Positions 1,678 through 58,002 of a stretch of DNA of 64,000 bases are shown here, piece after piece (within the stretch, counting starts at the first letter, position 1; every line of letters starts with the position of its first letter). Made by a program: the position numbers and the translations under genes. This DNA comes from Petrotoga sp. 9PWA.NaAc.5.4. GTDB taxonomy: Bacteria; Thermotogota; Thermotogae; Petrotogales; Petrotogaceae. The notes beneath the pieces are model-generated. The model had not been told where the DNA came from, did not search any database, and worked only from the letters and a program-made list of their open reading frames with translations. Location of the stretch: NCBI RefSeq assembly GCF_002895485.1, contig NZ_AZRK01000044.1, forward strand, positions 1-64,000, read 5' to 3'.

Positions 1678-1718
1678 ACTTATGAAACGGTACTTTTTAA
1701 AAATTGGATGAAAATATA

Positions 1719-1847
1719 TAGGTACTTTAGAAATGATAATTTTCAGAAAATAAGCTTTTGAATTTAAAATGGGTACGGGGCATAGCCCTCTCCCCTTCCT
1801 TGCTAAGATATACACATAATAAGGATTTTGGAGGTTCTAAAGTAAGT
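1719..1847 (+). repeat. MITE-like element, short copy, with 11-bp target duplication
   Basis: The left end GGTACTTTAGAAAT and right end TTCTAAAGTAAGT are inverted relative to each other. The copy is flanked by a perfect direct repeat ATGAAAATATA at 1708-1718 and 1848-1858, which looks like a target-site duplication. The middle, including the TTCGGTA hairpin, is deleted, giving about 129 bp instead of about 210. It points toward the nitroreductase. Confidence 0.85.
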
Positions 1848-1878
1848 ATGAAAATATAATAACGGAGGTATGTGAAAA

Positions 1879-2490: not shown

Positions 2491-3057
2491 TAGGTACTTT
2501 AGAAATGATAATTTTCAGAAAATAAGTTTTTGAATTTAAAATGGGTCCAGGGCGGAGCCCTCCTCCCCTTCCTTCGGTACAAATACCGAAAAAGTCAAAA
2601 AATTAAGAATTAGCAAGGATTAGATAGGTACTTTAGAAATGATAATTTTCAGAAAATAAGTTTTTGAATTTAGAATGGGTCCAGGGCGGAGCCCTCCTCC
2701 CCTTCCTTCGGTACAAATACCGAAAAAGTTAAAAAATTAAGAATTAGCAAGGATTAGATAGGTACTTTAGAAATGATAATTTTTCAGAAAATAAGTTTTT
2801 GAATTTAAAATGGGTTCAGGGCGGAGCCCTCCTCCCCTCCCTTCGGTACAAATACCGAAAAAGTTAAAAAATTAAGAATTAGCAAGGATTAGAAGTGGGG
2901 AGGTATTTTATAAAAAGTTAAACACTAAAATATTTATAAAATGTGAAGTTTAGAATTTCTAAAATGAGTAAGGATTAGAGCTAAGGAGGTATTTTTGAAA
3001 AAATCAACGCTAAAACATACATATAATAAGGATTTCGGAATTTCTAAAGCGGTTATA
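2491..3057 (+). repeat. Three tandem copies of the MITE-like element within one target duplication
   Basis: Near-identical units begin at 2493, 2627 and 2761, an exact period of 134 bp. The third unit runs on into the full 3' half of the element, ending AATTTCTAAAATGAGTA near 2970, and a second, diverged 3' half follows to 3057. The whole array is bracketed by the direct repeat AATCAATGTT (2481-2490 and 3058-3067). This suggests one insertion followed by tandem amplification. Each unit has the GGGC/GCCC and TTCGGTA/TACCGAA hairpins. The array points toward the Nfn-like gene at 3084. Confidence 0.9.
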
Positions 3058-3083
3058 AATCAATGTTATAAGGGAGGAAACAA

Positions 3084-5327
3084 ATGTTTTTAATTTCTGA
3101 TAAGAATAAATTAGCCCAAGGTGTTTACAGTATATGGGTAGAAGCTCCAAAAATAGCTCAACATGCTAAAGCGGGACAGTTTGTAATTGTAATAGCTCAG
3201 GAAGATGGAGAAAGAGTTCCTCTCACAATAGTAGATAAAAAAGGTGACAAGATAAGGCTTATCTTCCAAGTTGTGGGTAAAAGTACACAAAAAATGGCTG
3301 CTTTTGAGGATGGAGATTCTTTTGCTCATGTAGTAGGGCCTTTAGGAACACCTTCAGAAATAGATTATTATGGAACTGTTTTGTTAGTTGGGGGGGGTAT
3401 AGGAGTTGCGCCTGTTTTTCCTATTTTGAAAGCATTAAAAGAAAAAGGGAATAGAGTAATTTCTATAATAGGTGCCAGAACCTCTGATCTTGTAATTTTA
3501 GAAGAAGAATTTTCACAATACTCTGATAAAGTACTAATTACTACAGATGATGGATCAAAAGGGATAAAGGGTTTAGTAACTGATGGGATGAGGAAAGTAG
3601 TTTCTGAAGGGGAAAAGATAGATAAAGCGTGGGCTATTGGTCCAGTTATTATGATGAAATATGCGACATTAACTGCTCAAGAATTGGGTTTTCCTATAAT
3701 TGTTTCTTTGAACCCAATTATGGTCGATGGTACGGGGATGTGTGGAGGTTGTAGAGTAACTGTTGGAAACAATGTGAAGTTTGCTTGTGTTGATGGGCCT
3801 GAGTTTGAAGGGGAATTAGTTGAGTGGGACGAACTTTTAAAAAGGCTTGGGCAGTATAAGATAGAAGAAAAAACCGCCATCCAAGACCAGCCAAAAAAGC
3901 AACCTAAAAAAATTTTAAAAAACAAAGTTCCTATAAAAAAGCAACCTCCAGAGGTTAGAAAGCATAATTTTCAAGAAGTTGCATATGGTTATTGTTTAGA
4001 AGAGGCAATGATGGAAGCAGAAAGATGTTTACAATGTCCTGATAGCGCTTATAACTGTATAAAAGGATGTCCTGTAGGTATAGATATTCGTGGATTTATA
4101 AGAGAAATAAAAGAAGGAAACCTTGCCAAATCGGCAGAAATTTTGAAAAGTTACAATAACTTACCTGCCATATGTGGTCGCGTTTGTCCTCAAGAAAATC
4201 AATGTGAAGGAGCTTGTACCTTAGGTAAATCAGGAATTTTTGAACCAGTAGCTATTGGTAGGCTCGAAAGGTTTGTTGCAGATTGGGAACGTGTTCAAAG
4301 AAAAACAGAAGAAAAGAAAGAAGTAATTAAAATTAATGAATTTAGAGGCAAAGTAGCTGTTGTTGGAGCCGGACCTGCGGGTTTAACGGTGGCGGCAGAT
4401 TTAGCTAAAATTGGATATTATGTGAAAATATTTGAGGCATTACACAAGCCTGGTGGGGTTCTTACTTATGGGATTCCTGAATTTAGGCTTCCAAAGCAGA
4501 TAGTTTTCGAAGAAGTTGAATATGTTAAATCCTTAGGCGTTGAAATAGAAACGGATGTCGTAGTTGGTAAAACTATAACGATAGATGAACTGAGAGAAAA
4601 TTTCGATGCAATTTTTATCGGTACTGGTGCGGGAACTCCAAAATTTTTAAATATCTCTGGTGAAAATTTAAACGGAGTTTATTCTTCAAGTGAGTTTTTA
4701 ACAAGAGTAAATCTTATGAAAGCATATCAATTCCCTTTAGTGGATACTCCTGTTAAAAAAGGCAAAAATGTTGTTGTCGTTGGCGGGGGAAATGTAGCTA
4801 TGGATGCTTCGAGATCTGCTTTAAGGCTTGGGGCAGAAAGTGTAACGGTAGTATACAGAAGAACGGAAGAAGAAATGCCTGCAAGAAAAGAAGAATATGA
4901 AAACGCTGTAGAAGAAGGCATCAATTTTATGTGGTTAACCAATCCTATAGAATGTAAGGGAGACGAGACTGGTAATTTAATTTCAATAATTTGTCAAAAG
5001 ATGAAATTAGGTGAACCTGATTCTTCAGGAAGAAGAAGACCCGTACCAGTCGAAAATAGTGAAATAGAAATACCGGCAGATCTTTTTATAGTAGCTATTG
5101 GTCAAGAATCTAACAAAGTATTATTAAACGCTTTTCCAGAATTGAAACTGAATAAATGGGGATATATTGAAGCTGATCCAATCACGGGGGCTACTTCTAT
5201 AGAAGGAATATACGCAGGAGGAGATATTGTTACCGGTGCAGCTACTGTTATAGAAGCAATGGGTGCAGGTAAAAGATCAGCAAAAGCGATAGATGAATAC
5301 ATTTCATCAAAGGTTGGTAAGATTTGA
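3084..5327 (+). CDS. nfnAB: Fused NfnA-NfnB-type ferredoxin:NADP oxidoreductase
   Basis: This 747-residue flavoprotein joins two subunits usually made separately. Residues 1-280 are the ferredoxin-NADP reductase-like NfnA/SudB part: FAD and NAD folds, then a [2Fe-2S] site D215-x4-C220-x2-C223-x11-C235. The Asp first ligand is typical of NfnA rather than PyrK. Residues about 290-745 are the NfnB/GltD-like part: a cysteine-rich double [4Fe-4S] N-domain (CLQC, CIKGC, CGRVC, CEGAC), an FAD site VAVVGAGPAGL and a nucleotide site VVVVGGGNVAMD. NfnAB balances NADH, NADPH and reduced ferredoxin by electron bifurcation; sulfide dehydrogenase activity is the named alternative. Glutamate synthase small subunit is unlikely because no large subunit is nearby. 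pcm follows with overlap. Confidence 0.88.
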   Translation: MFLISDKNKLAQGVYSIWVEAPKIAQHAKAGQFVIVIAQEDGERVPLTIVDKKGDKIRLIFQVVGKSTQKMAAFEDGDSFAHVVGPLGTPSEIDYYGTVLLVGGGIGVAPVFPILKALKEKGNRVISIIGARTSDLVILEEEFSQYSDKVLITTDDGSKGIKGLVTDGMRKVVSEGEKIDKAWAIGPVIMMKYATLTAQELGFPIIVSLNPIMVDGTGMCGGCRVTVGNNVKFACVDGPEFEGELVEWDELLKRLGQYKIEEKTAIQDQPKKQPKKILKNKVPIKKQPPEVRKHNFQEVAYGYCLEEAMMEAERCLQCPDSAYNCIKGCPVGIDIRGFIREIKEGNLAKSAEILKSYNNLPAICGRVCPQENQCEGACTLGKSGIFEPVAIGRLERFVADWERVQRKTEEKKEVIKINEFRGKVAVVGAGPAGLTVAADLAKIGYYVKIFEALHKPGGVLTYGIPEFRLPKQIVFEEVEYVKSLGVEIETDVVVGKTITIDELRENFDAIFIGTGAGTPKFLNISGENLNGVYSSSEFLTRVNLMKAYQFPLVDTPVKKGKNVVVVGGGNVAMDASRSALRLGAESVTVVYRRTEEEMPARKEEYENAVEEGINFMWLTNPIECKGDETGNLISIICQKMKLGEPDSSGRRRPVPVENSEIEIPADLFIVAIGQESNKVLLNAFPELKLNKWGYIEADPITGATSIEGIYAGGDIVTGAATVIEAMGAGKRSAKAIDEYISSKVGKI

Positions 5328-12631: not shown

Positions 12632-12710
12632 TGTTTCGAATTTTGTATTCTTTTTTTTGAAAAATTATGAAAAACTTCGAAGAATAAATTGCAGAGTTTT
12701 ATGATTTATA

Positions 12711-12919
12711 GAGGCTTCAAAAATGAGAATTTTCTAAAAATAAGCGTTTGAATTTATAACAGGTTCAGGGTGAAATCTCATCCTTCTTCTTTGGTATGTG
12801 TGTCTAAGAGGTTGAAGTAATAGAGGATAGCTCAAAATTAGAATTGTGAAGGTAATTTGTAAAAAGTTAAACGCTGAAATATTGATAAAATATAAATTTT
12901 ATAATTTTTAAAGCGAGTA
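12711..12919 (+). repeat. Diverged copy of the MITE-like element
   Basis: The element layout is recognisable: an AT-rich head with AGAATTTTCTAAAAATAAGCG, a central CAGGTTCAGGGTGAAATCTC block, GTTAAACGCTGAAATATT near the 3' end and the end TTTTTAAAGCGAGTA. The two hairpins are degraded, so it is probably an older copy. It points toward acpP. Confidence 0.65.
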
Positions 12920-12931
12920 AATAACTGATTA

Positions 12932-13300
12932 GGTGCTTTAGAAATAATAATTTTCAGAAAATAAGCTTTTGAATTTAAAACGGGTCCAGGGCACAGCCCT
13001 CTCCTCCTTCTTTGGTTACAAGTACCGAAAAAGGTAAAGAGATTAGGAATTAGTAAGTATTAGAACTTAGAATGACTAAAAAAGAAGTGGGAACTTTAGA
13101 AATGATAATTTTCAGAAAATAAGCTTTTGAATTTAAAACGGGTCCAGGGCACAGCCCTCTCCTCCTTCTTTGGTTACAAGTACCGAAAAAGGTAAAGAGA
13201 TTAGGAATTAGTAAGTATTAGAAGCTTGGAAGTATTTTGTAAAAAGTTAAGCGCTAAGATGCTGATAAAATATGAATTTCATAATTTTTAAAAGCAGTAT
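12932..13300 (+). repeat. Two further tandem copies of the MITE-like element
   Basis: Two near-identical 5' units begin at about 12932 and 13089, with a period of 158 bp. Only the second has the complete 3' half, ending TTTTTAAAAGCAGTA near 13300. Both carry GGGTCCAGGGCACAGCCCTC and the paired TTTGGT/ACCGAA arms, which keep pairing through a G-T wobble. They lie in the long acpP leader and point toward acpP. Confidence 0.85.
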
Positions 13301-15242: not shown

Positions 15243-15295
15243 ATTAATGGACAAGAAATTTATAACCGGCTCAAGTTGGTAGCAAAACATATTTT

Positions 15296-15550
15296 AGGGA
15301 TTTTAAAAATGATAATTTTCTAAAAATAAGCATTTGAATTTATAACGGTTAAACTATCCCGTTTGCTACAAAGACTGTCGCATCAATCCCTTCGTAGAAG
15401 GGTAATGGCGGAGCCTCTCTCTGATTACAAGTACAGAAAAGGTTAAAAAATTAGGAATTAGTAAGGATTAGAACTGAGGAGGTATTTTATAAAAATTTCA
15501 ACGCTAAAACATAGATATAATGTAGATTTTATAATTTCTAAAGTGAGTAT
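15296..15550 (+). repeat. MITE-like element, long subfamily, with target duplication
   Basis: This copy is about 255 bp. It has an extra block of some 45 bp in the middle, starting GGTTAAACTATCCCG and including the hairpin CCCTTC-GTA-GAAGGG, not seen in the standard element. CATATTTT occurs on both sides (15288-15295 and 15555-15562), part of a slightly longer imperfect repeat. It points toward the glycosidase gene. Confidence 0.8.
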
Positions 15551-23383: not shown

Positions 23384-23388
23384 TTAAT

Positions 23389-23600
23389 AGGCACTTTAGG
23401 AACGATAATTTTCAGAAAATAAGCTTTTGAATTTAAAATGAATTCAGGGCACAGCACTCTTCCCCTTTCTTGGCTAAAAGTACCGAAAAAGGTAAAAAAA
23501 TTAGGAATTAGTAAGGATTAGAAGTGGGGAGGTATTTCATAAAAAATTCAACGATAAAATATACATAAAAAATGTTTTTAGAGTTTCTAAATTCAGTATA
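23389..23600 (+). repeat. MITE-like element copy
   Basis: It runs from GGCACTTTAGGAACGATAA to AGTTTCTAAATTCAGTATA, with the internal GGAGGTATTTC and CAACGATAAAATAT blocks. The first hairpin is weakened (GGGCACAGCACTC). It is immediately upstream of the next copy and points toward ndk. Confidence 0.75.
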
Positions 23601-23615
23601 TACTAATGTTTATAT

Positions 23616-23826
23616 AGAAACTTTAGAAATGGAGATTTTTCAGAAAATAAGCTTTTGAATTTATAAAGGGTCCAGGGCGGAGCCCTCTCCCTATTCCTTC
23701 GGTACAAGTACGAAGAAGTTAAAAAAATTAGGAATTAGTAAGGATTAGAAGCGGGGAGGTATTTTGCAAAAAGTTAACCGCTGAAATATTTATAAAATGT
23801 GAAGTTTAGAATTTTTAAAGTGAGTA
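23616..23826 (+). repeat. MITE-like element with a perfect 12-bp target duplication
   Basis: This 211-bp copy is the best-bounded one. TAATGTTTATAT occurs exactly at 23604-23615 and again at 23827-23838. The ends are AGAAACTTTAGAAAT and TTTTTAAAGTGAGTA. AGGGC-GGA-GCCCT and a TTCGGTAC...GTACGAA hairpin are inside. The right-hand duplication lies 8 bp before the ndk Shine-Dalgarno sequence. Confidence 0.9.
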
Positions 23827-23854
23827 TAATGTTTATATCAAAGGAGAAGTTAAC

Positions 23855-24322: not shown

Positions 24323-24508
24323 GTTTTAGATTTAGAAATGAAGATTTTCTAAAAATGGGATTTTGGATTTATAATTGGTCCAGGATATAGCTCTTTCCTG
24401 ACTCCGTATAAGTACAGAAAAACTAAAGAAATTAGTGAGGTGTTTTGTAAAAAAATTAAATTTAAAAGATTGGCAAAACTTAAGTTTTGGAATTTCTAAA
24501 AACAGTAA
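24323..24508 (+). repeat. Diverged MITE-like element upstream of glgD
   Basis: The copy is recognised by GATTTAGAAATGAAGATTTTC at the left end, GGTCCAGGATATAGCTCTTT in the centre, and GGAATTTCTAAAAACAGTA at the right end. The hairpins are weak. It points toward glgD, 30 bp before its start. Confidence 0.65.
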
Positions 24509-24537: not shown

Positions 24538-25659
24538 ATGAGAGTAATGGGATTGATATTATCCGGTTCAAGTAGAGATAATTTAGATAAATTAACAACA
24601 AAAAGAGCAAGTGCGGCTGTCCCTGTTTTTGGAAAATACAGGGCGATTGATTTTACTTTAAGTAATATGGTGAATTCTGGCATTATAAATGTAGGTGTTT
24701 TAACTCAATACAATCCTAGATCTCTAATGGACCATTTAGGAAGTGGCAAAGAATGGAACCTTGATAGAAAGAGAGGCGGCCTTTTTATTTTACAGCCTTT
24801 TATGAGTTTGGAAAGTCAAAAAATGCAATACGAAGGAACTGCTGATGCAATTTTTCAAAATATGACTTATTTGCGTAGATCTATAGAAGATTTTGTATTG
24901 ATTGGTTCGGGTGATCATATATATAATATAGATTTTAGAGATGTTTTCAAATACCATGTGAGAAATGGTGCAGATATTACTTTAATTACAAAAACCATGA
25001 AAAAAGGTTTAGATTTGACACAATATGGTCAAGTGGTTGCAGATGAAAATAATCGAATTTCCAAAATATATGAAAAGGTTTCAGAGTTTCATTCTGACAA
25101 AATATTTTTAGGCTTATATTTTATAAATAAAGCTTTACTTTTAGAAATGCTTTATGCAAACGTACCAAACAAAAAATATGATTTATTAACAGATATAGTT
25201 ATTCCAAATTTATCTCGATTAAGAGTTTTTTCTTACGAATTTAATGGATATTGGAAAAATATTAAAAAGTCCGTAGAAGAATATTATAATACTAATATGG
25301 ATATACTAAAAAAAGAAGTACGTGACGAGTTATTTTACAATCCCGAAAGAAAAATTTATACGAAATTAAGAGATTCGGCACCACCTAAAATAAATATAAA
25401 CGCTAAAATAAGTAATTCTTTTATATCGGATGGGTGTATAATAAATGGGGTAGTTAAAAATTCTATTTTGTCAAGAGATGTAATCATAAATGCGGGAGCA
25501 GTTATAGAAGATTCGATAATATTACAAGGATGTGTTGTTGAAGAAGGTAGTGTGATAAAAAGAGCCATTATAGATAAAAACGTACGAATAAGATCAGGTA
25601 AAAGATTAGAAACAGTAGGAAACGAGATTAACCTTATAGAAAAAGGTACAATCATATAA
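24538..25659 (+). CDS. glgD: GlgD-type ADP-glucose pyrophosphorylase subunit
   Basis: This 373-residue protein has a nucleotidyltransferase domain followed by a left-handed beta-helix. It resembles GlgC but the catalytic GGxGTRLxxLT loop is replaced by [12 protein letters not shown], the usual state of GlgD, which is thought to be a regulatory partner of Glg[23 protein letters not shown] is otherwise well conserved. The glgC gene follows 11 bp later. Together they supply ADP-glucose for glycogen. The start ATG follows AAGGGGAAAAG. Confidence 0.9.
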
Positions 25660-26930: not shown

Positions 26931-26969
26931 GACATATTAGGTTTGGAATCGAACTGAAACTTTATAGCA

Positions 26970-27580
26970 GTTACGTTAGAAATTGAGATTTTCGAAAAAC
27001 GATGTTTTGAAAAGAGTTCATCGCACAGCCCTTTTCCCTTTTCTTCGCTACACTTAGCGAAAAAGTTAAAAATGCATTAGTAAGAATTAGATAGATACTT
27101 TAAAAATAAGAATTTTATAAAAAATAATGTTTTTTTGAATTTATAACGGGTTCAGGGCGGAGCCCTCTCCCCATTCCTTGGGTACAAGTACCGAAAAACT
27201 AAAGAAATTCATATTTTGAAGGAATTAGATAAGAATTTTAGAAATGAGAATTTTATAAAAAATAATGTTTTTTTGAATTTAAAACAGGTTCAGGGGGGAG
27301 CCCTTCCTTCTTCTTTGATATGCGTACCTAAGAACTTAAAAAATAGTTAATTTGTCAAAATTAGAATTGCATAAGCATTTTATAAATAAAGATTTTAGAA
27401 AATAAGCTTTTGAATTTAAAAAGGGTTTAGGGCGGAGCCCATTTCTCTTCTTAGTCACACGTAGCGAAAAAGTTAAAAAATGCCTATTTATTAAGAATTA
27501 GAGTTATAGAAGTGTTTTTTTAAAAAGTTAAACGTCAAAACATTAATATAATCTAAGTTTAAGAATTTCTAAAGGGATTA
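26970..27580 (+). repeat. Cluster of four MITE-like element copies
   Basis: Four units begin near 26970, 27093, 27230 and 27371. All keep the GGGC..GCCC-type centre; the last runs to the full right end AAGAATTTCTAAAGGGATTA. The first has TTCGCTA/TAGCGAA instead of TTCGGTA/TACCGAA, a compensatory swap. The second and third share a variant head with AATTTTATAAAAAATAATG. All point toward the gene at 27607. Apart from this cluster, nothing else is seen in the 676-bp gap. Confidence 0.85.
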
Positions 27581-27606
27581 ACAATTAATTTTAAGAGGTG
27601 TCTATT

Positions 27607-33687: not shown

Positions 33688-33723
33688 CTTTTGTCCTCCT
33701 CGTATAATGATCACTACTGTCTT

Positions 33724-34130
33724 AAGAAATTTCAAAACACAGATTCTATAAATATTTCAACGTTTAGTTTTTTAAAAAATACTTCCATAACTCTAATTCT
33801 TACTAAAGTACTTTTAACTTTTTCGCTAAGTGTAGCGAAGAAAAGGGGAGAGGGCTCCGCCCTGGACCCATTTTAAATTCAAAAAAACATTATTTTTATA
33901 AAATTCTTATTTCTAAAGTGCCTATCTAATTCTCACAAAATATGAATTTCTTTAACCTCTTCGCGACGTGTAACTAAGGAGAGAGGGAGGGCTCCGCCCT
34001 GGACCCGTTATAAATTCAAAAAAAATTATTTTATTGACTAATTGTAAAGACGTGCTATAAGTACCTCTGATGTTTTTTAAATAAGCTCATTATAAAAATT
34101 CAAAAATCTTTATTTCTAAAGTCTTATTAT
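33724..34130 (-). repeat. Two MITE-like element copies inside the aromatic operon
   Basis: In minus orientation two units are visible. Their centres are GGGCGGAGCCCTC, complement near 33853 and 33988. The unit nearest aroKB has the covarying hairpin TTCGCTA/TAGCGAA, and its 3' half covers 33724-33835. The junction, ATTTCTAAAGTG on the plus strand, is near 33910. The array lies between aroC and aroKB and points in the direction of aroKB transcription. Confidence 0.85.
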
Positions 34131-39829: not shown

Positions 39830-40100
39830 ATATACTTTAAAAACTTTAAAAATGAAAATTTCTAAAAATAAGTGCTTGTATTTATAATGGTTAAACTTTG
39901 ATGTCGGTGACATAAAACAGTCGCATCTACCCCTTCGTAAAAGGGAAAAGGCGAAGTTTTCTTCTTCTCTTTCGATACACGTAACAAAAAAGGTTAAAAA
40001 ATTCAGAATTAGTGAAGCTTAGAAGTGGGGAAGTATTTTTAAATAAATTTAAAACTAAAATGTTGGCAAACTTAAGTTTTAGAATTTTTAAAGATAGTAA
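39830..40100 (+). repeat. MITE-like element, long subfamily
   Basis: This 271-bp copy shares the extra central block with the copy at 15296: GGTTAAACTTTGATG, CAGTCGCATC and a CCCTT-CGTA-AAGGG hairpin. It also has ATGTC-GGT-GACAT. The right end is AGAATTTTTAAAGATAGTA. It points toward the Zn peptidase gene. Confidence 0.8.
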
Positions 40101-40128: not shown

Positions 40129-40800
40129 ATGTTTTACTCAACGTTATTGTTATTAATACCCCCTTTACTGTTGGCAATTTATGCGCAAGCGAGGGTTAGT
40201 AGTACTTTTAATAAGTACTCCAAAGTGAAGTCTTCTTTAGGAGAACCAGGGTATATGTTTGCCAGAAGGTTGCTTGATTCTATGGGACTATATGATGTTA
40301 AAATCGAAAGAGTTAGAGGAACTTTAACTGATCATTATGATCCAACGAAAAAAGTATTAAGACTTTCTGATGCGACTTATAATAGTTCTTCGATAGCAGC
40401 TTTAGGAGTAGTAGCACATGAGGCAGGCCATGCTATACAACATGCTAAAGGCTACAAACCGCTGGTTTTAAGAAACTTAGCTGTTCCCTTGGCTGGTTTT
40501 GGTTCTAATATGGCGTGGATAATTTTCTTTGTAGGATTAATTTTTTCTGCTCCTTTTCTTTTAAATGCCGGTATATTCTTGTTTCTTTTTGTAGTTTTGT
40601 TTTCTGTAATAACTTTACCGGTTGAATTTAATGCCAGCAAAAGGGCAATAAAAATTTTACCCGTAATGGGTATGTCTAAAGAAGAAGTTTCTGGTGCCCA
40701 AAAAGTTTTAAGTGCGGCGGCTTTAACTTATGTTGCAGCAGCTTTAATGTCTATAGCACAACTTCTTAGAATGCTAATTTTAGCAAGAGGAAGAAACTAA
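40129..40800 (+). CDS. Zinc metallopeptidase (YugP family)
   Basis: This 223-residue membrane protein belongs to the Zn_peptidase_2 family. The zinc motif is H97-E-A-G-H101 in VVAHEAGHAIQH. There is one N-terminal helix (1-19) and three or four C-terminal helices (about 115-220). The catalytic part lies near the membrane. Substrates in this family are poorly known. The start ATG follows TAGGAGGTG. A terminator follows at 40857. Confidence 0.9.
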   Translation: MFYSTLLLLIPPLLLAIYAQARVSSTFNKYSKVKSSLGEPGYMFARRLLDSMGLYDVKIERVRGTLTDHYDPTKKVLRLSDATYNSSSIAALGVVAHEAGHAIQHAKGYKPLVLRNLAVPLAGFGSNMAWIIFFVGLIFSAPFLLNAGIFLFLFVVLFSVITLPVEFNASKRAIKILPVMGMSKEEVSGAQKVLSAAALTYVAAALMSIAQLLRMLILARGRN

Positions 40801-41008: not shown

Positions 41009-41177
41009 TTATGTACTTTAGAAAAGGTGAATTTTCATAAAAATAGATTTGAATGTATAAATGGGTTCAGAGCGGAGCCCTCCCCCTCTCTTTCGCTATA
41101 CGTAGCGAAGAAGTTAAAGTAATAGTAGTTAACAAAAATATTAATAAAACTTAAGTTTTAGAATTTCTAAAGTGAGT
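41009..41177 (+). repeat. MITE-like element with 10-bp target duplication
   Basis: A shortened copy, TATGTACTTTAGAAAAGG to GAATTTCTAAAGTGAGT, is flanked by AAAAATAAAT at 40999-41008 and 41178-41187. It has GAGC-GGA-GCCC in the centre and the covarying hairpin TTCGCTA/TAGCGAA. It points toward rlmN. Confidence 0.88.
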
Positions 41178-41211: not shown

Positions 41212-42255
41212 ATGAACGTTAAAAATATTTTAGATTTTAACTATAACGACTTGAAAAAATATTTAACTGAAAACATAGGATTAGAAAAATATAGAACCGA
41301 TCAGATTTGTGATTGGATATATAAAAAGAAAATATTTGATTTTCAAGAGATGACTAATTTATCTAAAACTGATAGAGATATACTCACCGAAAATTTTCAG
41401 ATAAGTATACCTTATCTCATTAAAAAACAAGTTTCTAAAGTTGATGGTACTACGAAATATCTTTTTGAATTAGAAGATGGAAATACTGTAGAATCTGTTC
41501 TTATATTTTATCCAAATAGAACCATTGCTTGTATTTCTTCACAAGTTGGTTGTCCTTTGAAATGTGAATTTTGTTCTACAGGGCAAAGTGGTTTTATAAG
41601 AAATTTGAGTTCCGGGGAAATTATAGGCCAATTATTAGCAATAGAAAAAGACAAAAACTTAGAAATAAATAATGTAGTATATATGGGAATGGGAGAACCT
41701 CTTTTAAATTTTGACAATGTTATTCGAAGCATCGAAATTTTAAATGATCCTAAAATGAAAAGATTAGGGGCTAGACACATAACAATTTCTACTGCAGGAA
41801 TTCCTCATAAGATTGAAGAATTAGCTGAATATAAAAAGGAAATAAGATTATCTGTTTCTTTACATGCTCCTACTAATGCCCAAAGAAACAAAATAATGCC
41901 TGTAAATCATAAATATACTATTGAACAGGTAGTTCAAGCTTGTAAAATATATCAGGAAAAAACAAATAAAAGGGTAACCTTTGAATATATTTTAATAAAA
42001 GGGTTTAATGATACGAAAGAAGATGCTTTAAAATTAGCTGATCTTATCGGAAATATGAAAGCTATGGTGAATTTGATACCCATAAATGAAAATCCAGCAG
42101 GTTTCGAAAAACCTTCGAAAAGGTTTATAGAAATATTTTTGGATACTTTAATAAAAGCTGGAATAGACGCAGTTGTCAGAGCTGAAAAAGGAAGCGATAT
42201 TTTGGCAGCGTGTGGACAACTTCGCCTTAAAAAGATAGGGGTTTCATACAAATGA
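41212..42255 (+). CDS. rlmN: Dual-specificity RNA methyltransferase RlmN
   Basis: RlmN is a radical SAM enzyme that adds a C2 methyl group to A2503 of 23S rRNA and to A37 of some tRNAs. The 347-residue protein has the cluster motif C114-PLK-C118-EF-C121 and a conserved cysteine C334 near the C-terminus (ILAACGQL), needed in the methylation cycle. VYMGMGEPLLN is also typical. The start ATG follows GGAGG with a long spacer. The stop overlaps the PASTA gene start as ATGA. Confidence 0.96.
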   Translation: MNVKNILDFNYNDLKKYLTENIGLEKYRTDQICDWIYKKKIFDFQEMTNLSKTDRDILTENFQISIPYLIKKQVSKVDGTTKYLFELEDGNTVESVLIFYPNRTIACISSQVGCPLKCEFCSTGQSGFIRNLSSGEIIGQLLAIEKDKNLEINNVVYMGMGEPLLNFDNVIRSIEILNDPKMKRLGARHITISTAGIPHKIEELAEYKKEIRLSVSLHAPTNAQRNKIMPVNHKYTIEQVVQACKIYQEKTNKRVTFEYILIKGFNDTKEDALKLADLIGNMKAMVNLIPINENPAGFEKPSKRFIEIFLDTLIKAGIDAVVRAEKGSDILAACGQLRLKKIGVSYK

Positions 42256-48029: not shown

Positions 48030-48100
48030 TTACTTTTAGAAATTTTACTTGCTTTAGATATTCTAAAACTTAGGTTTTGTAAATATTCTAAGTTTTATAA
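48030..48100 (-). repeat. Truncated 3' end of the MITE-like element
   Basis: In minus orientation the segment CTTAGGTTTTAGAATATCTA then AAGCAAGTAAA matches the 3' end of the element (compare CTTAAGTTTTAGAATTTCTA and AAGTGAGTAAA upstream of rlmN). The hairpin part is absent. It lies just upstream of the DUF5685 gene and points toward it. Confidence 0.5.
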
Positions 48101-48148
48101 GTTCTGATTGTACAAGCTATTAAAGTAAAAGTTATTTATGTTAATAAA

Positions 48149-57791: not shown

Positions 57792-58002
57792 TATTTACTC
57801 ACTTTGGAAACTCTAAAACTTGATTTTTATCCTGTTTTAGCGTTTAATTTTTTTCAAAAATACTCCATAACTCTAATTCTTGCTAACTATGAATTTCTTC
57901 AACTTCTTCGCTACATCCAACGAAAGAAAGGAGCTCTGTCCCGAAATCATCATAAATTCAAAGCATTCCCATTCGAAAACCTGGCTTCTAAAGTTCTTGT
58001 AT
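57792..58002 (-). repeat. MITE-like element copy upstream of mtaB
   Basis: In minus orientation it runs from AGAACTTTAGAAGCC to GAGTTTCCAAAGTGAGTAAA, about 211 bp. It has the hairpin TTCGTTG/TAGCGAA (pairing with wobbles) and AAACGCTAAAACAGG. ATATCTACT and ATATTTACT flank it, an 8-of-9 match that may be a target duplication. It lies between the promoter at 58047 and mtaB. Confidence 0.75.

Follow-up and report, generated by a model that had tools for sequence, protein, structure and literature searches.

The window, that is the whole 64-kb stretch of DNA analysed here, carries near its start a short repeat copy that is enclosed by two identical words and lies directly upstream of a nitroreductase gene:

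1708-1718, + strand: left target-site duplication (TSD) ATGAAAATATA, a word that occurs on the + strand only at 1708 and 1848
1719-1847, + strand: short, internally deleted MITE copy, TAGGTACTTTAG...TTCTAAAGTAAGT, 129 bp
1848-1858, + strand: right TSD ATGAAAATATA
1864-1868, + strand: Shine-Dalgarno (SD) motif GGAGG of the nitroreductase gene (ATG at 1879), 16 nt past the element end

Most of the R unit is missing from this copy; the usual copy with one L and one R unit measures about 200 bp. A sequence-only reading of the window had listed five pairs of flanking repeats, all of which are present. Three of the repeated words, ATGAAAATATA, AATCAATGTT (2481 and 3058) and TAATGTTTATAT (23604 and 23827), are each confined to their two listed places on the + strand of the window. 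AAAAATAAAT and CATATTTT are common words with 4 and 13 occurrences in the window, so these two pairs are weak taken alone. The other copies in the window are the following:

2481-2490, + strand: left TSD AATCAATGTT of a composite copy; right copy at 3058-3067
2491-3057, + strand: composite MITE of three L and two R units (LLLRR); GGAGG at 3073-3077, gene start at 3084
2759-2969, + strand: probable nested MITE inside the 2491-3057 composite; 10-bp TSD AAGGATTAGA at 2749-2758 and 2970-2979
12709-13299, + strand: composite MITE (LRLLR); GGAGG at about 13315
15295-15549, + strand: MITE (LR), possible TSD CATATTTT (15288, 15555); GGAGG at about 15567; upstream of an alpha-amylase family gene
23388-23826, + strand: double MITE (LRLR), TSD TAATGTTTATAT (23604, 23827); AAAGGAG at 23840; upstream of ndk
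24324-24507, + strand: MITE (LR) with a weak SD; gene at 24538
26968-27580, + strand: MITE (LLLLR); gene at 27598
33715-34060, - strand: MITE (LLR), SD GAGGAGG; upstream of a minus-strand shikimate kinase/3-dehydroquinate synthase fusion gene
39837-40097, + strand: MITE (LR), AGGAGG; gene at 40129
41010-41177, + strand: MITE (LR), TSD AAAAATAAAT (40999, 41178), CGGAGG; gene at 41212
48051-48101, - strand: R-unit fragment upstream of a minus-strand gene
57800-57867, - strand: R-unit fragment, AGGAGG, upstream of a minus-strand gene

The nested MITE at 2759-2969 lies upstream of an element-internal AAGGAGG (2983-2989). The 10-mer AAGGATTAGA also ends the preceding L unit, and the inner element could alternatively start at 2625.

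The repeat family was gathered by profile searches for the L and R parts in 1.62 of the 2.22 Mb of the window's genome (G000), which returned 476 L and 262 R matches. The 299 MITE clusters make up 4.5% of the 1.62 Mb read, a density biased somewhat upward by the partial choice of stretches that hold copies, and about 17% of the called genes have a cluster directly upstream. A consensus copy (about 200 bp) runs from TAGGTACTTTAGAAAT through an L unit with a hairpin-like GGGCGGAGCCC and an R unit with GGAGGTATTTT to ATTTCTAAAGTGAGTA. The ends TAGGTACTTTAGAAAT and ATTTCTAAAGTGAGTA are inverted repeats of one another, and the bounding inverted ends read TANNNACTTTAGAAAT. Copies are non-coding and range from about 130 to 750 bp. 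The element thus has the hallmarks of a MITE, being short, non-coding, bounded by terminal inverted repeats and flanked by a target-site duplication, and G000 also contains an autonomous partner that matches it in ends and TSD length.

All flank and target statistics refer to the 131 clusters in the 1.62 Mb with both ends complete, which are built as LR (66), LLR (20), LRLR (15), LLLR (12) and others. Left and right flanks mispaired from different copies served as control. Perfect 10-bp flanking repeats accompany 27 of the 131 copies, versus 0.31% of mispaired flanks (0.4 copies expected); at least 11 of 12 flank letters match in 35 copies, versus 0.62%; and exact flank repeats of at least 9 nt number 38, versus about 1.5 expected. 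The TSD is typically 10-12 bp long, with element boundaries ambiguous by 1-2 nt owing to the TA-rich ends; some exact matches reach 16 nt, possibly including chance extension. Many old copies have no detectable TSD. The flanking duplications are real and were produced by transposition.

Arrays may grow when an element inserts before an internal GGAGG and the two R units then recombine; the LRR and LLLRR clusters possibly represent something like the intermediate of such growth. At one MITE locus in two sister genomes, a variable-number repeat is found, with five L units in one (G003:C1:1799143-1799666) and six in the other (G009:C27:65278-65895). Self-comparison of the G000 stretches read displayed no multi-copy transposase; apart from the repeats of the element itself, it brought up only stretches that are tandem or duplicated. 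These comprise a long tandem array of 120-bp periodicity, possibly inside a repetitive coding region (G000:C15:38700-42020), an 804-bp duplication of 97.5% identity on one small contig (G000:C4:15578-18121), and a long tandem array of about 132-bp period, probably of MITE L units (G000:C12:70298-71283).

The position of the copies relative to genes is highly regular. GGAGG, AGGAG or GAGGT starts 14-24 nt outward of the R end in 114 of the 131 copies (87%), versus 2.8% when intergenic positions and orientations are drawn at random; in 108 copies the distance is 16-21 nt, and beyond the L end such a motif is found in 3 copies only. By simple longest-ORF calls, 110 of 130 copies are followed on their own strand by a gene that starts no more than 60 nt away. 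The layout is thus element, duplication of 10-12 bp, a few nucleotides, AGGAGG, start codon. Most of the 17 copies outside this rule still have a weaker SD. In G003 and G009, which represent another genus, 15 of 16 R ends obey the rule. Almost no copies stand in reverse orientation or in convergent intergenic space. Two insertions are nested, each upstream of an AAGGAGG inside another element and flanked by 10-bp TSDs (AAGGATTAGA and AAGGATTAAA), and the copy at C43:67815 lies upstream of AAAGGAGC in a terminator-like hairpin.

The genome of the window also harbours an autonomous insertion sequence (IS):

G000:C2:50420-52043: autonomous IS of 1,624 bp, terminal inverted repeats TACCCACTTTAGAAAT/TAGTCACTTTAGAAAT, 10-bp TSD ATATATATAA, followed by AATTAGGAGG

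AATTAGGAGG adjoins the start of an adenine phosphoribosyltransferase-like gene (named from reading its sequence). The transposase is encoded by an open frame of 417 amino acids with DUF772 and DDE_Tnp_1 domains, and a search of G000 for DDE_Tnp_1 found no protein beyond this single one. The match to PF01609 (DDE_Tnp_1) scores 34.3 bits with a cut-off of 23, the domain being common to other families too. Putative catalytic residues are D148, D250 and E356; D250 and E356 are invariant in all four aligned transposases, and D148 in all that cover it. A PDB sequence search with the transposase gave no match, and its predicted structure was poor (mean pLDDT 43.9). MITE and IS have common ends and share little internal sequence. 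The IS is probably the mobiliser of the MITEs, a pairing suggested by ends, TSD length and target. In G003, a mobile element with an IscB-like protein (L165) has unrelated ends and was ruled out as partner. This multi-copy element (L165:16850-17850) has many matches in G009 and places an IscB-like protein (from reading the sequence) after a structured RNA-like stretch.

The transposase has relatives in 15 of the 21 genomes of the family and, at E <= 1e-40, in 11 of the 103 genomes searched in the phylum. Wherever readable, the transposase-start end adjoins an SD (L195, L196, L197, L198, L199, L200/L211, L201, L203, L210, L214, L224, L225, L226, L228); these autonomous or decayed copies come from several genera, L200/L211 being probably one orthologous locus. 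Perfect 12-bp TSDs flank the copies at L196 (TTACCTTCAAAA) and L225 (AAAATGATAATA). The transposase at L226 is 37-38% identical, and the motif AAAGGAGGT is present there, with no confident start codon or TSD. A 2025 survey of REP sequences counts Defluviitoga tunisiensis among repeat-rich Thermotogota.

One locus can be compared among relatives. It holds an autonomous element with a perfect 12-bp duplication in G008, is empty in G002, G014 and G018 with a single CTTTGCCATATCGAAAGGAGG or a close variant, and carries in G012 and G016 a 77-bp MITE between TTTGCCATTT and TTTACCATTT. Different elements have thus been inserted separately at a single SD. The 77-bp MITE is a member of a further abundant family, which has a different body, is found in the G002-G018 genus and has more than 40 matches in each of five genomes; 18 of its 22 readable copies strictly obey the SD rule, orthologous loci being partly counted more than once. 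A second empty site, filled in G003 and empty in G009, has diverged so far that the duplicated letters can no longer be seen. The sequence-only reading had attributed the flanking repeats to target-site duplication by transposition and had proposed that empty sites in sister strains should hold one copy of the duplicated word. Relatives do hold such a single copy, and together with the genome-wide excess over mispaired flanks this bears out the attribution. The further statement that the element moves or moved recently is supported with regard to mobility by transposition, but not with regard to recency of the 1708-1858 copy. Since perfect duplications stand beside many decayed ones, activity of the MITE spans a long time.

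Based on this dataset, we consider it likely that the repeat is a MITE moved in trans by the DUF772 and DDE_Tnp_1 transposase of the 1.6-kb IS in the same genome, with its target chosen by A(A)GGAGG. Under such a mechanism, this transposase would act on the MITE ends in trans, insertion would duplicate about 10-12 bp of AT-rich target, and the transposition complex would pick its site by A(A)GGAGG, usually the SD of a gene. The duplicated stretch would immediately precede the motif on its 5' side, and the R end, which in the autonomous copy is the one where the transposase starts, would face the motif, so that the element would land in the 5' UTR in fixed orientation and leave SD and coding sequence intact. 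More generally, it appears likely that DDE insertion sequences of one lineage, together with the MITEs that share their ends, use the AGGAGG of the SD as an orientation-specific DNA target, and have thereby filled hundreds of 5' UTRs in several genera (probably of the Thermotogota) with SD and frame intact. Neither this choice of target nor the autonomous element had been part of the sequence-only reading. Full-text literature searches of open-access papers found no SD-directed insertion sequences or MITEs, and a 2024 review of prokaryotic MITEs makes no mention of Shine-Dalgarno or ribosome binding.

The same distribution may be thought to arise from an ordinary MITE with near-random insertion, the copies upstream of an SD being survivors that break neither genes nor SD. 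Prokaryotic MITEs are normally intergenic (PMC10969869), and insertions in 5' UTRs can be tolerated. However, random insertion followed by selection appears unlikely, because the spacing is kept within a few nucleotides, a single orientation prevails, and convergent intergenic space, where it would leave copies, is nearly empty. Survivorship is also at odds with autonomous IS copies at the same spacing in several genera, with nested copies at an AAGGAGG inside another element, and with elements inserted independently at a single SD in different species. The nested copies and the terminator-associated copy, few in number and all before genes or gene ends, favour recognition of AGGAGG as a DNA motif. 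We infer that the transposase selects AGGAGG as DNA; survivorship may contribute to the placement in 5' UTRs.

A second alternative, which we regard as very improbable, sees in the repeat a regulatory leader or promoter element, conserved and kept upstream of genes by selection, with mobility secondary. The nearly constant sense placement directly upstream of genes, the conserved hairpin-like GGGCGGAGCCC and the AT-rich R unit are compatible with it. On the other hand, the downstream genes are functionally unrelated, the element is absent at orthologous loci in sister species, and the autonomous IS takes the same positions. A function as RNA regulator was rejected, as there is no Rfam match, the hairpin pairs are kept no more than column independence predicts, and the consensus fold of the aligned copies has no pairs. 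With regard to a promoter, an AT-rich -10-like stretch is visible in the R unit, with no convincing -35. Finally, the IS4-type transposition that the sequence-only reading had suggested is compatible with TSDs of 10-12 bp and a DDE_Tnp_1 domain but is hardly credible, as the transposase with matching ends has DUF772 and its NCBIfam matches are IS1182 (the nearest), IS5 and IS982, all below cut-off, with no IS4-family model among them.

Transposition by the resident DUF772 and DDE_Tnp_1 transposase may be compared with known systems. The IS1182 family (e.g. IS1272) shares the DDE_Tnp_1 domain and the one-gene layout, and provides the best NCBIfam match. Scores are only 56-74 bits (55.9, 73.5 and 68 bits with NF033551), far below the curated cut-off of 270. 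IS1272 inserts by replacing a stem-loop, and no TSD arises (PMC5678879), whereas the elements described here have 10-12 bp TSDs and AGGAGG as target. The ISAjo2 group of the IS1202 family consists of 1.5-kb IS with a single transposase, inserted at fixed distance and orientation beside dif/pdif (PMC10132070). The likeness lies in the single transposase and in this placement beside a short chromosomal motif; in contrast, the ISAjo2 transposase is TnsB-like with two HTH domains, its TSD measures 5 bp, and its target is dif, not AGGAGG. The BOX elements of Streptococcus pneumoniae are alike in architecture only, as modular MITEs with variable tandem internal modules and ends resembling those of the resident ISSpn2; their modules differ, and the available part of their description includes no SD targeting (PMC3049150). 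REP/BIME and ERIC sequences likewise are repeats that form hairpins and lie between genes in high copy number. REPs make no TSD and are associated with tyrosine (HUH) transposases, unlike the element described here, which is of DDE type with a TSD.

To our knowledge, few transposons have a defined safe target, Tn7 being the best studied, besides the ISAjo2-type elements next to dif. If our reading is true, an element with a single protein recognises the ribosome-binding motif and has a target before nearly every gene, 5' UTRs are altered genome-wide, and a compact system is available for studying site selection by DDE transposases. It would also account for a class of repeats that abounds in these genomes and makes up about 4.5% of the sequence read.

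In a transcript that runs into the IS from outside across the element end, a 13-bp stem (ACCTCCTTACGAT/ATCGTAAGGAGGT) is predicted to cover the SD of the transposase itself; a transcript from the internal TATAAT would be without the 5' arm of this stem. IS10 and IS50 are known to be protected against read-through, and the predicted leader hairpin may resemble this arrangement. As predicted for L195 and L196, the SD-covering hairpin is kept with sequence changes between two species.
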